A stretch of 64,000 nt of DNA from assembly GCA_021801265.1 (NCBI GenBank), contig JAJYYE010000010.1:124001-188000 (forward strand). The letters are read 5' to 3'. Below the pieces are notes generated by a model, which was not told where the DNA came from, did not search any database, and saw only the letters and a list, made by a program, of their open reading frames with translations. Each line of letters begins with the position of its first letter. The stretch's first letter is position 1. The stretch is from Pseudomonadota bacterium (GTDB lineage Bacteria > Pseudomonadota > Gammaproteobacteria > Halothiobacillales > Halothiobacillaceae). Shown one piece after another: positions 5,060 through 58,530 of the stretch. The position numbers were made by a program, and so were the translations under genes.

Positions 5060-6144
5060 GGTTTAGGTGCCTGTATTGTCGGCACAGTGGGCTGAATGCG
5101 CACTGCCATGCCATCCTGCAGTACATATTGCCCTTGGGTCACAATCTGATCACCTACACCCAAAGCCCCAGATACCTGCGGTTCAATCACGCTTGATTCG
5201 CCCACGCGCAGCACCACATGGACGGGGATTGCCCTGGCAATTTTTTCATTGGCACCACGGCTCGCAGACTCGATCCAAAAAACCGTCGGCGTGCCGGAAT
5301 CCATCAGTACCGCATCGGTCGGCACAAGCAAACCGCGCTGTGCAGGCAGATCAATGTCACCTTGCAAGGTTGTGCCCGTAATTAAAGGGCTGTTTTGGTC
5401 GTCGGGTTTGGCAATCACATCCAACAGGCGGGTCGCAGGGTTAATTTGACCATCCACCCGCAGCACGGTAGCGGTTTGCTGACCGTGGGCCGCAAATACC
5501 GAATGAAAGCGAATCCGCGTACCCGGCACAATGACAGCGGCATCCTCGGGCTCAATGCCAAACCGCAGCAACAACGCCTGTTGCGCCGATAAGGTGAGTA
5601 AGGCGCCCCCGGGGGCGACGATGCTGCCCACGGCCGCAGGCACCGTCATCACCAAGGCATCTTCGGTGGCTTTGATGGTTTGGACTGGTTGGTTGCTGCC
5701 GATTTTTTCCAGGGTTTTGATGCGCTGATCGGCATCCAGCACGGCTTGTTTGGCACGCACCACATCTTGATGGGTGGCCATTTGTCGCGCGAATAAATAC
5801 TGTTTTTGGGTTAAATCCTGGTTCATCACTACCTGCTGCGATTGCGCCTGCTGGAAGGCCAGGTTCGCATTGGGATCGGTTTGCATTACCAGCAACGGCT
5901 GGCCTTTTTTTACCCGCTGGCCCGCTTCAACCAACACTCGGCTGACCTGCCCGCCGGTTTGCGTGGTGATGCTTTGCGTATGAGTTGGGTCGGCAATCAC
6001 TTGGCCATAAGCGGCAATCGCGGGGGTCAGGCTTTGAATTTGCAGGGGTTGAACCGACACTTGGGCGATGACTGTAGGCTCGTCTGCGGCGCACGTCATC
6101 GGTGCCATTAAAAACCAGGCTAGCACCCCAAGCAGGGCAATCAT
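5056..6144 (-). CDS. RND efflux periplasmic adaptor (membrane fusion protein)
   Basis: A 362-residue adaptor that would bridge the permease and the TolC-type channel. I chose the ATG at 6142-6144 because GGAGG lies four bases upstream and the product then begins with a signal peptide (about residues 1-22, ending near TCAADE). The open frame continues to 6222 without a better start. A lipoyl/biotinyl-like motif (VLVEAGQRVKKGQPLLVM, about residues 70-90) precedes a short coiled-coil hairpin (about 95-145), beta-barrel and membrane-proximal domains. The alanine- and glutamine-rich hairpin is short for a canonical TolC-docking adaptor. The stop overlaps the permease start by four bases. Confidence 0.91.
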   Translation of the reverse strand: MIALLGVLAWFLMAPMTCAADEPTVIAQVSVQPLQIQSLTPAIAAYGQVIADPTHTQSITTQTGGQVSRVLVEAGQRVKKGQPLLVMQTDPNANLAFQQAQSQQVVMNQDLTQKQYLFARQMATHQDVVRAKQAVLDADQRIKTLEKIGSNQPVQTIKATEDALVMTVPAAVGSIVAPGGALLTLSAQQALLLRFGIEPEDAAVIVPGTRIRFHSVFAAHGQQTATVLRVDGQINPATRLLDVIAKPDDQNSPLITGTTLQGDIDLPAQRGLLVPTDAVLMDSGTPTVFWIESASRGANEKIARAIPVHVVLRVGESSVIEPQVSGALGVGDQIVTQGQYVLQDGMAVRIQPTVPTIQAPKP

Positions 6145-6221: not shown

Positions 6222-7625
6222 TCAGTATTTTTTCTCAATGGTGGATTCATCCACCGTGGATGTATTCATGGTGGATTTCTCTGGGCACCCCAACACGCCG
6301 AGCAAAGCCAATTGCGCCTGAACAATCGCTTGGCGGGTTTGAATGGCGTTTAATCGCTCGGCAGTGAGTGTTGCGCGCACGGCCAAATAGGAACCTGCCG
6401 AAAAATACCCGGCATCCAACGCAGTTTGGGCATTGGCGGCGGTTTTCTCCAAGGTGGGCAGGCGCGCATCAATTTGCGCTAAGCGGGCGCGATAAGCCGC
6501 AAGCTGGCTCTGCACGGCAGCCACATCACTCACGGCCTGATTAATCCGCACTTGAAATTCGGCCAACAGTTGCGCACGGCTGGCTTGGGCGACCGCCACG
6601 CCCGCTTGGGCACTGCCGAATATCGGCAGGCTTAACCCCACGCTGAACCCGGCGGTTTGCACATTGCTGGTATCGTTGGCATGGCTAAAGCCCAAGGTCA
6701 AGCCGGGAAATTGCTGCAATATGGCCGCCCGATAATTGGCATCGGCTTGCAACACACCAGCACGCAGGGCGAGTAAATCGGGGCGGCGAGCGGCGAGCTG
6801 TGTCAGCATCAAGTTTTGTTGTGCGGTATCAGGCGTTGCAATATTCGGCCAGCCCCGTGTCTGCCAAAACGTATCGGGCGCCAAGCCCATCAAGGCATTC
6901 ATTTTCTGGTGCATTTGGATGGCCTGCAATTGCAACACATCCACTTGCCGCGCTAAATCGGCGGCGCGTACCACATCGGCCACTACCCGATCTTGGGTGA
7001 TGTAGCCCTTCGCCAAGGCCGCTTCACCTTGACGCTGACGCGCGCGTAACTCGGTGAGCTCCACCGTTAATACGCGCGTTTGTTCGGCATTGGCCACCTG
7101 CTGGATATATAAATCACTGGCTTTAATTTGGGTGGTTAGGCCCAACCAAGTGTAGTTTAACTCTTGCTGAATTTGTGCGGCTTTTGCCGCGTCGAGGCGA
7201 TCGTTACGCGAGATTATGGCCGATAAATCAAGACCGATGGCCTGATTCATGGCATTAATCAAGCCCGCGCCATTCAAGGGGTGATCCAGCGTTAAATTCA
7301 AGGAAGGATCGGGCAACGAGCCTGCTTGGCGTATGCGCGCCGCCGCAATCATCAACCCACGCTTGGCGGCCTTCAAATCCGGATTATTCTGCAACACCAG
7401 GGTTTGAATAGATCCCAAAGTAAGGGTTTCGGCCTCGGCAAGGTGCCCCGGCATGGGGGCCGTAGCGGGCAAAGCCGCAAAGTTGGGCTGTTGCGGTACG
7501 ACTAAGGGCTGATATGGGGCGCAACCGGCCAGCAAAGCACTGATGGCCATCGCCATAACGGCGTATTTTCCATTTTTCACCAGCCTGTACGGCTGCTCAA
7601 TCGAGTAGAACCATCCTGCGCGCAT
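6222..7625 (-). CDS. TolC-type outer membrane efflux lipoprotein
   Basis: Outer membrane factor of the tripartite pump, 467 residues from the start given. A lipoprotein signal is clear: MAISALLAGC, with the modified cysteine in the LAGC lipobox. Two repeated OEP domains follow (about residues 55-240 and 265-450), rich in A, Q and L as expected for the alpha-helical barrel, including ASRAQLLAEFQVRINQAVSD. The start is uncertain: ATG at 7623-7625 has GGGGA seven bases upstream, but an in-frame ATG at 7641-7643 and a GTG directly before KNGKYAVMAMAIS are alternatives. First gene of the efflux operon; the palindrome at 7693-7708 lies upstream. Confidence 0.88.
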   Translation of the reverse strand: MRAGWFYSIEQPYRLVKNGKYAVMAMAISALLAGCAPYQPLVVPQQPNFAALPATAPMPGHLAEAETLTLGSIQTLVLQNNPDLKAAKRGLMIAAARIRQAGSLPDPSLNLTLDHPLNGAGLINAMNQAIGLDLSAIISRNDRLDAAKAAQIQQELNYTWLGLTTQIKASDLYIQQVANAEQTRVLTVELTELRARQRQGEAALAKGYITQDRVVADVVRAADLARQVDVLQLQAIQMHQKMNALMGLAPDTFWQTRGWPNIATPDTAQQNLMLTQLAARRPDLLALRAGVLQADANYRAAILQQFPGLTLGFSHANDTSNVQTAGFSVGLSLPIFGSAQAGVAVAQASRAQLLAEFQVRINQAVSDVAAVQSQLAAYRARLAQIDARLPTLEKTAANAQTALDAGYFSAGSYLAVRATLTAERLNAIQTRQAIVQAQLALLGVLGCPEKSTMNTSTVDESTIEKKY

Positions 7626-54677: not shown

Positions 54678-54684
54678 TAACCCA

Positions 54685-54867
54685 GTCTTCTCGGACGTGC
54701 GTCAGGTTGCTCTCAATCCCTTGAGCCTTAATCTGCGACTATGGGGGGTGCATCAAATGGGTCGTGTGCATGTCCGCCTCGTCGGAAAGCCTTACACCCA
54801 TTGCGCGCCGCCCAGCTTGAACCCTCGGTTCAAGGTCGAAGAGCCGCCAACGGCGTTTGGGAAGACG
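54685..54867 (+). ncRNA. ssrS: 6S RNA
   Basis: Closing-stem halves are GTCTTCTC at 54685-54692 and GGGAAGAC at 54859-54866, extended by GGACGT against GCGTTT. Internal landmarks match known gammaproteobacterial 6S: CCCTTGAGCC, CGTCGGAAAGCCTTA and the GAACC-CTCGGTTCAAGG hairpin. Size is about 182 nt (E. coli 184). It is followed within 20 bp by ygfA, the conserved ssrS-ygfA arrangement. 6S RNA sequesters the sigma-70 holoenzyme in stationary phase. Ends are approximate. Confidence 0.93.
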
Positions 54868-54886
54868 CTCCACACATCACACACTC

Positions 54887-55651: not shown

Positions 55652-56116
55652 ATGAACCACTGGCTCATGAAATGCGAACCCGAGATGTTTTCGATTGATG
55701 ATCTGGCCCGCCAAAAAGTTGAAGGCTGGTATGGTATTCGCAATTATCAGGCACGCAATATGATGCGCGATGCCATGCGGATGGGGGATCAGGTGTTTTT
55801 TTATCATTCAAATATCAAAGTACCGGGCATTGTCGGCCTTATGAACGTGTGCAGCGCACCCTACCCCGATCCGACCCAATTCCAGCCCGAACACCAATAC
55901 TTCGACGCGAAATCCACCGCCGAATCACCGCGCTGGGTGCAAGTCGATGTGTGTTATGAACGCCATTTGCGCCGCATCATCACCCTTGAAGAACTCAAAA
56001 GCGACGAGACACTGGAAGACCTGCCGCTGGTGCGTCGCGGCAATCGCCTGTCGATCATGCCCATCAGCGCATCCAGCTGGGCGCGTATTCTGGCGCGGGA
56101 AGATCACACCCTGTGA
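55652..56116 (+). CDS. EVE-domain protein (THYN1/YqfB-like fold)
   Basis: 154 residues covering a complete EVE domain: HWLMKCEPEMFSIDDLARQK at the start, WYGIRNYQARNMMRDAM and GDQVFFYHSNIKVPGIVGLM. EVE domains belong to the PUA/YTH superfamily and read modified bases in DNA or RNA. Family members of this length occur widely in proteobacteria, often without a known role. AGGAG precedes the ATG. It follows ygfA by 72 bp. Confidence 0.93.
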   Translation: MNHWLMKCEPEMFSIDDLARQKVEGWYGIRNYQARNMMRDAMRMGDQVFFYHSNIKVPGIVGLMNVCSAPYPDPTQFQPEHQYFDAKSTAESPRWVQVDVCYERHLRRIITLEELKSDETLEDLPLVRRGNRLSIMPISASSWARILAREDHTL

Positions 56117-56838
56117 GGCCATTAAGCAAACACGTTATCCCCAGCTTCACTGGCGACGCAACCGATAAAACGCACCCGAACAGAACGCCGACCGACTGAC
56201 CGGGGGCTAACACACCCTTTACATCAAAAAAATAAATTCATTATTTAACAAACACTTGATTGAAAAAAATCAGCGGCGGTCTCAAGTTGTGGTTTTTTTA
56301 GCCACCGACTTAAAGTATTGATCCAACGCCACCCAACCCAGATACCCGTAAAACATGCACAGGATTATCCACAGATTCTGTGGATAATCCCAAGTGCGGT
56401 ACGAAACTCGGTTGATGCCGATTTCAAGAAATCAGGGATTGCGCCATGGCAGAAATTCATCCCCAGCTGATCGCGCATCAGCGTCAAGCAGAATTCGCGC
56501 TTTCGCCTGAGGAGGGCACGCGCCTTATCCAAAGGCAACGTCTTGAACTGTGGGGATTTACCTCATCCATTCAAAACTTATCCACAACATTACCCCCTAT
56601 TCCAAAGCGGCTCAAAGCGCATAACACGAAGCTGGACCCAGCTCAAGCAGCATGCGCCAAGAATAAAATTCACTTCACTTTATCATTGATAAACAACATC
56701 TTGAACAACAGAAAAAGGCCAGACAGAGAATGATGTTGATTTTTTAACCACCCTCACCAACCCCTTGATTCACCAAGCAGACGGCCCATTGCGCGGTATT
56801 CATCCACGAGGTTATCCACAGTTATTGTGGGTAAATCA
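56117..56838. other. DnaA-box cluster in a gene-free, AT-rich region
   Basis: Four perfect DnaA boxes TTATCCACA (or complement) lie at 56365-56373, 56379-56387 (reverse), 56578-56586 and 56812-56820. Two one-mismatch boxes are at 56525-56533 and 56826-56834 (reverse). The first two form the inverted repeat GGATTATCCACAG-ATT-CTGTGGATAATCC. A strongly AT-rich tract lies at 56217-56275. A 95-codon frame at 56446-56733 has no recognisable family and probably is not a gene. This looks like a DnaA-binding locus, either a replication origin or a titration/regulatory site. Confidence 0.6.
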
Positions 56839-58362
56839 TCACGCCAAAAACAGTTCGTACACGGGGTTATTGCTTTCATCCCAAAAGGGGTAAGCCAATT
56901 GCTCAAGATAGGTACTGAATGCAGCCATATCCTGTATTGCTACCTGCACACCCACCAGCACCCGGCCATAATCCGCACCGTGATTGCGGTAGTGGAACAG
57001 GCTGATATTCCAGCGCGCGCCCAAATGCGTTAAAAATTTGAGCAAGGCACCGGGGCGTTCCGGAAATTCAAACCGGTAAAGCCGCTCATCAGCCAGCGCG
57101 CGCGCATGGCCACCGACCATGTGCCGCGCGTGCAATTTGGCCATTTCGTTATCGGTGAGATCAATCGCGGGATAATCCGCATGGGTCAAATGATGAAATA
57201 CCGCTGCCCGATCACTCGGCGCGTCCAAGCGAATTCCGACGAAAATATGTGCCCGTTCCTGATCGGCATATCGATAATTAAACTCCGTAATCTGCCGCCG
57301 CCCCAGTAACTCACAGAACGTCTGGAAACTGCCAGGGCGTTCAGGAATCGTCACGGCAAACAGGGCTTCGCGCTGCTCGCCAATATCGGCACGCTCAGCC
57401 ACAAAGCGCAGCCGATCAAAATTCATATTCGCGCCCGAGGCAATCGCAATCAAGGTTTCACCCCTGACATTGTGCTGTTTTACGTATTTTTTCAGCCCGG
57501 CCAACGCCAATGCGCCCGCCGCTTCGTTGATGCTACGGGTGTCATCGAACATATCCTTGATGGCGGCAGTCATCGCATCGGTATCGACGGTAATCACTTC
57601 ATCTACCGCCCGTTGGGCGACCGCAAACGGATAGGCGCCCACCTGCTTCACGGCGACGCCATCGGCAAACAGCCCGACTTGATCCAACACCACCCGATTA
57701 CCTGCCGCCAATGCGGCCGCCATACACGCCGCATCATCGGGTTCTACCCCGATAATTTTAATGTCCGGTCGCAGTGATTTGACATACGCCGCGATGCCCG
57801 CAATTAATCCGCCGCCACCCACGGGGACAAAAATGGCATAAATTGAATCAGGATGGTGGCGCAAGATTTCGGCACCAATAGTGCCTTGCCCCGCAATAAT
57901 ATCGGGATGATCATACGGCGGAATAAATACGAGGCCTTGCGCCTCGACCAGTTGCTGGGCGTGCGCGAAGGCCTCATCAAACGTATCGCCATGCAATACC
58001 GCCGTGGCGCCGCGACGCCTCACTGCATCCACTTTAATCGCAGGGGTAGTAACGGGCATCACAATGACCGCCGTAACACCGAGGCGCTCTGCGGCCAAAG
58101 CAACCCCTTGGGCGTGATTCCCAGCCGAGGCGGTAATCACGCCCCGACTCAAGCGGCCTTCCGTCATGAGCCGATGCATCATGTTGTAGGCGCCGCGCAA
58201 TTTAAATGAAAACACCGGCTGGGTATCTTCACGTTTCAGTAACACGCGATTATCTAAACGCTCGGAAAGCAACACCGCGTGCGTCAGCGGCGAATCAATG
58301 GCCACGTCGTAGACGCGGGCGGTTAAAATCCGGTGCAGGTAATCCTGTAATAATGCGGACAA
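56839..58362 (-). CDS. ilvA: Threonine ammonia-lyase, biosynthetic
   Basis: 507 residues from the TTG at 58360-58362 (E. coli 514). The open frame continues to 58452, but that stretch is AT-rich promoter-like sequence and encodes a hydrophobic run foreign to the family; GGGGGG lies eight bases before the TTG. The PLP lysine is in PVFSFKLRGAYNMM (about residue 56), ASAGNHAQGVALAA is the substrate loop, and the C-terminal regulatory part has two ACT-like subdomains (GRRQITEFNYRYAD and HLGARWNISLFHYRNHG), so it is the isoleucine-sensitive biosynthetic form. Confidence 0.94.
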   Translation of the reverse strand: MSALLQDYLHRILTARVYDVAIDSPLTHAVLLSERLDNRVLLKREDTQPVFSFKLRGAYNMMHRLMTEGRLSRGVITASAGNHAQGVALAAERLGVTAVIVMPVTTPAIKVDAVRRRGATAVLHGDTFDEAFAHAQQLVEAQGLVFIPPYDHPDIIAGQGTIGAEILRHHPDSIYAIFVPVGGGGLIAGIAAYVKSLRPDIKIIGVEPDDAACMAAALAAGNRVVLDQVGLFADGVAVKQVGAYPFAVAQRAVDEVITVDTDAMTAAIKDMFDDTRSINEAAGALALAGLKKYVKQHNVRGETLIAIASGANMNFDRLRFVAERADIGEQREALFAVTIPERPGSFQTFCELLGRRQITEFNYRYADQERAHIFVGIRLDAPSDRAAVFHHLTHADYPAIDLTDNEMAKLHARHMVGGHARALADERLYRFEFPERPGALLKFLTHLGARWNISLFHYRNHGADYGRVLVGVQVAIQDMAAFSTYLEQLAYPFWDESNNPVYELFLA

Positions 58363-58530
58363 AGCCAGCGCCCCCCAAAAAATAGAATTAGATAGAATAT
58401 AAATGGCATAAATTAAAGGCTGCATCCAGAGATGCACAATTCTATCTATCATGACAGAATGTTGAATTATTCGGGACGCGCTGACAAATGCGGCTCATCA
58501 CGTAATGCAGAATCATCAAGGAACACGCCC

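Follow-up and report, generated by a model that had tools for sequence, protein, structure and literature searches.

A conserved tandem of predicted DARS2-type DnaA-box modules between an EVE-domain gene and ilvA in Halothiobacillus

The closest described systems are the Escherichia coli loci DARS1, DARS2 and datA. A DARS is defined by a DnaA box I that opposes boxes II and III, and the boxes of DARS1 and DARS2 are equally spaced (PMC5742627). DARS1 contains three boxes and does not require an IHF or Fis site (PMC4585315). DARS2 is controlled by IHF and Fis (PMC4245941). In minimal datA, every essential box points in one direction; datA boxes 2 and 3 face the same way, 162 bp apart, with IHF in between (PMC5742627). 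According to a review, DARS-like sequences occur in many proteobacteria (PMC10380432). DARS1 and DARS2 reference sequences were cut from E. coli MG1655. DARS1 reads TTATCCACT, 5 nt, TGTGGATAA, 3 nt, TGTGTATTA, and DARS2 has identical spacing.

The window is the whole stretch of DNA that was analysed (64,000 nucleotides). It lies on contig C9 of a sulphur-oxidising Halothiobacillus, the genome of which contains 2,658,717 bases (2.66 Mb) in 12 contigs. The region of interest is a non-coding gap flanked by the 3' ends of the convergent EVE-domain and ilvA genes, and these flanks are found in nine Halothiobacillus genomes, the window's own included. The original prediction had described the region as gene-free, which agrees with this arrangement. 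It had also placed the boxes upstream of ilvA, which is wrong: ilvA, a minus-strand gene, has its 3' end at the gap, and the region is downstream of it. Its statement that the genes to the left are mostly on the minus strand fails for the nearest ones, as those from nadB (49.5 kb) to the EVE gene (56.1 kb) are on the plus strand. Coding DNA in the gap was considered and rejected; a 95-aa open reading frame at 56446-56733 had no match in a family search. A 6S RNA (54684-54868, plus strand; Rfam RF00013, 102 bits) is located in the window directly 5' of a 5-formyltetrahydrofolate cyclo-ligase gene.

The gap contains four perfect TTATCCACA boxes (Table 1), and the window has no others. Dinucleotide shuffles of the window contained a mean of 0.46 perfect boxes, and none of 100 shuffles contained at least four. 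The whole genome has 30 perfect sites in 2.66 Mb, four of them inside these 456 bp, for which the rough Poisson expectation is ~6e-7 genome-wide. This makes the cluster the genome's densest for perfect boxes, because the genome total is just 30. The claim that the four boxes stand far above chance is therefore borne out by the window shuffles and by the genome-wide density. The 13-bp inverted repeat with a 3-nt centre (56362-56390), the AT-rich tract (56217-56275) and the two one-mismatch boxes (56525, plus; 56826, minus) were also found where they had been described. A further box, TTATCCCCA at 56135 (plus), was absent from the original list. A second inverted box pair (56812/56826), again with a 5-nt spacer, had been overlooked.

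The region consists of two tandem modules, A and B. Each core contains box III, 3 nt, box II in the same direction, 5 nt and an opposed box I. Beyond the core, each module has an IHF consensus at -54, 29 bp past box III, a Fis-like palindrome beside it at -77, and a distal DnaA box ~220-235 bp off. Box III is weak in both modules of this genome (two mismatches each), and boxes I and II are good. The boxes, their geometry, spacing, conservation and synteny are direct observations. The one-mismatch box TTATCCAAA at 56525-56533 (plus) is located between the modules and matches no conserved position of either.

Reactivation (DARS) fits the locus best because its core boxes are arranged as in E. 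coli DARS1 and DARS2. With a probability of roughly 0.8, the locus is a tandem pair of DARS2-type modules that would exchange ADP for ATP on DnaA. The original prediction had offered titration or reactivation as a reading; the reactivation part is the better supported, and datA-like titration fits less well.

Table 1. Features of the box region and its flanking genes. Positions are those of the window; offsets are relative to box II.
Feature	Position	Strand	Sequence or remark
EVE-domain gene	55652..56116	+	PF01878, E 2e-54; points into box region; adjoins it in 9/9 species
Module A distal DnaA box	56135..56143	+	TTATCCCCA; 230 bp upstream of box II
Module A second IHF-like site	56249..56261	-	AATCAAGTGTTTG; exact WATCAANNNNTTR; within AT-rich tract
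Module A, profile R1 match	56285..56388	+	67.2 bits; training-set member
Module A Fis-like T-tract palindrome	56289..56303	.	GTGGTTTTTTTAGCC; degenerate here; exact Fis consensus at same place in relatives
Module A IHF site	56311..56323	-	GATCAATACTTTA; 1 mismatch; -54 to -42
Module A DnaA box III	56353..56361	+	ACATGCACA; 3 nt to box II, spacing as in E. coli DARS1/DARS2
Module A DnaA box II	56365..56373	+	TTATCCACA
Module A DnaA box I	56379..56387	-	TTATCCACA; faces box II across 5-nt spacer, as DARS1 TTATCCACT-5-TGTGGATAA
Module B distal DnaA box	56578..56586	+	TTATCCACA; 234 bp upstream of box II
Module B second IHF-like site	56691..56703	+	AAACAACATCTTG; 1 mismatch
Module B, profile R1 match	56733..56835	+	69.7 bits; training-set member
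Module B Fis-like palindrome	56735..56749	.	GTTGATTTTTTAACC; 1 mismatch to GNNYANNNNNTRNNC
Module B IHF site	56758..56770	-	AATCAAGGGGTTG; exact consensus; -54 to -42
Module B DnaA box III	56800..56808	+	TCATCCACG
Module B DnaA box II	56812..56820	+	TTATCCACA
Module B DnaA box I	56826..56834	-	TTACCCACA; one mismatch
ilvA (threonine ammonia-lyase)	56839..58452	-	TIGR01124, 813 bits; 3' end toward box region

Modules from nine Halothiobacillus genomes (18 modules) were compared, anchored on box II. A tenth genome (G015), in which the region is not intact, was left out. The cluster is kept in all nine comparable genomes, the window's own included, with both modules in each. The alignment is gap-free from -80 to +22. 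The spacing III-3 nt-II-5 nt-opposed I occurs in 18 of 18 modules, and the T-tract palindrome (~-77 to -63), the IHF consensus and boxes III, II and I are invariant or nearly so. The predicted IHF site matches YAANNNNTTGATW with at most one mismatch at the exact offset of -54 in every module. A second IHF-like site is present at -115 to -121 in most. The -77 palindrome has several mismatches to the strict Fis consensus in module A and is an exact consensus in other family members. Some species have a degenerate box I in module B (G013, G017 and G020, with CTGTGCACA).

Modules A and B of this genome are 73% identical inside the sites and 32% identical between them. By this measure they are old duplicates, apparently kept alike by sites and spacing alone. 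The distance between the two modules ranges from 343 to 546 bp across genomes. The distal box of module A is found at -220 to -231 in 8/9 species and is a perfect TTATCCACA in four. That of module B is perfect in 9/9 species, at -220 to -235. In G014 and G016 the distal box and box II are 220-223 bp apart; most other genomes have 229-235 bp, and the distance class matches between A and B within each genome (220/220, 221/223, 229/231, 231/231). At 10.5 bp per turn, distances of ~220 and ~231 bp correspond to nearly 21 and 22 turns, which suggests helical phasing.

The palindromes could also be RNA hairpins of a bidirectional terminator for the convergent EVE and ilvA genes, given that the gap lies between 3' ends and that the palindrome at 56360-56392 was called terminator-like on the minus strand. 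However, nine paired positions in the 18 modules showed 0 compensatory changes and 17 broken pairs, no better than shuffles, and the hairpin reading was rejected on this count. A DnaA box is kept in each palindrome half, and the same module is found at other places. A hairpin would also leave the spacing of box III, the IHF site and the distal box unexplained. A terminator is very unlikely. We give similarly little credence to a role in transcriptional regulation, such as that of a DnaA-controlled promoter. In E. coli, DnaA targets are mainly double boxes with a 3-bp separation, and many of these are at promoters (PMC11317965). However, the gap contains no recognisable gene start; both neighbours end at it, and no family matches the 95-aa reading frame. 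Promoter-like sites in the gap are near chance level.

An origin was the other reading of the original prediction. Like oriC, the locus combines a DnaA box cluster with an IHF site and an AT-rich tract, and it holds the genome's densest group of perfect boxes with that tract next to it. Unlike oriC, it has no skew change and no dnaA or dnaN neighbours, and it has opposed 5-nt box pairs. The absence of dnaA and dnaN nearby had been noted correctly; both are on contig C8, where dnaA, dnaN and recF are located at 486-490 kb with rpmH-rnpA-yidC-mnmE alongside. GC skew was sampled in 10-kb stretches. On C8 it changes sign, being -0.102 at 455 kb and +0.093 at 520 kb, so that these genes and the skew change all fall at C8:455-520 kb. 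Skew is negative or near zero through the window, with no change, and most of C9 is negative. In the complete genome of the relative G013, dnaA is at 0.5 kb with the skew minimum near it, and skew is mostly positive up to ~1.3 Mb and mostly negative after that. The cluster is at 760-761 kb of 2.58 Mb, mid-arm and slightly past halfway. In G012, also complete, it is farther from dnaA than in G013. On gene order and skew, the locus is not a replication origin, because the dnaA cluster and skew switch are on C8 and the locus is mid-arm in G013 and farther still from dnaA in G012. Either oriC or a second origin here is extremely improbable. The original prediction had set against itself a skew minimum and dnaA located elsewhere, together with boxes that are not conserved in sister species; the former was found, but the boxes are kept in 9/9. 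Perfect boxes also occur in AT-rich gaps a few kb from dnaA, past mnmE (C8:494323 and C8:496742; G012:C1:2051773-2051826). It is possible that these gaps are the oriC region of the genus, which would then not be immediately beside dnaA.

The locus resembles DARS2 in its core (III-3 nt-II-5 nt-opposed I), in having a predicted IHF site and a Fis-like palindrome beyond box III, and in not being an origin. Like the Halothiobacillus modules, DARS2 also has an extra DnaA box, ~190-200 bp away in E. coli. The two differ in several respects. The E. coli IHF site is at ~-71 to -99, whereas in Halothiobacillus the IHF site is at -54 and the palindrome at -77. The Halothiobacillus distal box is same-facing with box II at -220 to -235, whereas that of E. 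coli is opposed at ~-197. Halothiobacillus has two well-formed tandem modules. The gene neighbours are EVE/ilvA here and rppH-mutH in E. coli. We describe the modules as DARS2-type and not as DARS2 orthologues, because the rppH-mutH position is a trait of E. coli relatives and is absent here. DARS1 has the identical core geometry but requires no IHF or Fis site. MG1655 has another III-II-I-like set upstream of mutH (L134 3452-3486), which is degenerate; it has the orientation of the DARS2 core and is 316 bp away from it. It has strong DnaA binding in published ChIP data (PMC11317965). E. coli DARS2 may be the remnant of a tandem.

The serious rival is a datA-like locus: across the IHF site, the distal box is same-facing with box II, as are E. 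coli datA boxes 2 and 3. At such a locus, ATP-DnaA would assemble head to tail on boxes flanking an IHF bend, where it would be either held or made to hydrolyse its ATP. Like datA, the locus is intergenic, and both neighbouring genes have their 3' ends at this non-coding gap. However, boxes I and II opposed across 5 nt are its best-conserved feature; this pair defines DARS and is missing from minimal datA (PMC5742627), and Fis-like sites are a trait of DARS2 and not of datA. Eight boxes would give little titration. datA is near the origin, whereas this locus is far from dnaA in the two complete genomes (G012 and G013). A datA-like function is unlikely.

A sequence profile (R1) was built from 26 modules. 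R1 finds E. coli DARS1, which was not in its building set, with 28 bits, and DARS2 weakly, with 11.8 bits. A third, single module is present in the same genome at C9:114824-114918 (L114 6825-6919, minus strand), 65 kb left of the cluster and outside the window. It has an exact Fis consensus GGTTAAATTTTGACC, an IHF site about one turn closer to the core and a distal box at -190. G013 has four modules, the tandem pair and singles at C1:841900-841994 and C1:1643026-1643120. Other Halothiobacillaceae genera contain single modules at other places, and in several of these the Fis consensus is exact, at -77 or -78.

Besides the nine Halothiobacillus genomes that could be compared, an unclassified Halothiobacillaceae MAG (L036) has the tandem form, there too beside ilvA. 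The L036 modules are at 6517-6611 and 6720-6815, and the second is weak (21.7 bits). The position beside ilvA looks recent, because only L036 shares it among 80 ilvA loci sampled across many lineages. An ancestral ilvA linkage was rejected on the same sample. A distant gammaproteobacterium likewise has two modules ~380 bp apart (G258:C209:4935-5033 and 5316-5365).

R1 matched 335 of 369 sampled gammaproteobacterial genomes at E 0.01, many in the core only, and 110 of 150 genomes across the phylum, 75 of these outside the class and mostly core-only. Core-only matches were not taken as proof of a DARS, and the 335/369 is read cautiously, because such matches are common outside the class. Outside the modelled stretch, the best 29 class-wide loci, own excluded, have 20 exact DnaA boxes at -182 to -234, all same-facing, against 1.2 expected for the whole flank. 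These loci also have 14 IHF-like sites at -106 to -112, again outside the model. An exact Fis consensus near -78 is present in 21 of the 29, at a position inside the R1 model.

The genome encodes IhfA, IhfB and Hda, all above the NCBIfam cut-offs. It encodes a Fis-like protein (best E 3e-28, below the curated NCBIfam cut-off) next to dusB; in E. coli, fis follows dusB. A SIS-domain protein gene is located directly after a yraN-like gene. It is probably diaA, given the E. coli order yraN-diaA. The partners of the DARS2 complex are probably all encoded, because IhfA, IhfB, Hda, Fis-like and SIS-domain proteins are present.

From the sites and their spacing we infer binding of DnaA, IHF and Fis, looping, nucleotide exchange and a role in initiation timing. 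ADP-DnaA would load on boxes II and III, head to head with DnaA on box I. IHF, aided by Fis, would bend the DNA and bring the distal DnaA-bound box near the core. ADP would then leave DnaA, and ATP would be rebound. The two modules may serve as two recharging stations at one locus well off the origin, with a third 65 kb away. ATP-DnaA would thereby rise in a timed manner ahead of initiation at an oriC near dnaA.

This kind of element is already known, because E. coli DARS2 (PMC4245941) and DARS-like sequences in many proteobacteria (PMC10380432) have been described. New here are the arrangement of modules in tandem, an IHF/Fis spacing unlike that of E. coli and an apparently phased distal box; a literature search whose coverage stopped short of two central DARS papers found no report of these. 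Tentatively, and at slightly less than even odds, the gammaproteobacteria have an ancestral DARS2 design with fixed helical phasing (distal box at ~190/220/231 bp, IHF at ~-110, Fis at ~-78, core III-II-I). E. coli DARS2, on which most work has been done, would then be a rearranged descendant, and the Halothiobacillus locus a doubled two-station element with an extra IHF site at -54.

Work on DARS has been confined almost entirely to E. coli. In this tandem from a distant gammaproteobacterium the spacers are randomised but the spacing is kept, which shows the parts that matter. The distal box appears to be phased at 18, 21 or 22 turns, which makes the looping model directly testable. If looping is true, half-turn insertions would abolish activity and full-turn insertions would be tolerated. 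The profile provides a route to DARS loci in a large bacterial class. The findings suggest that the DARS-type cell-cycle switch has a fixed and widespread design.
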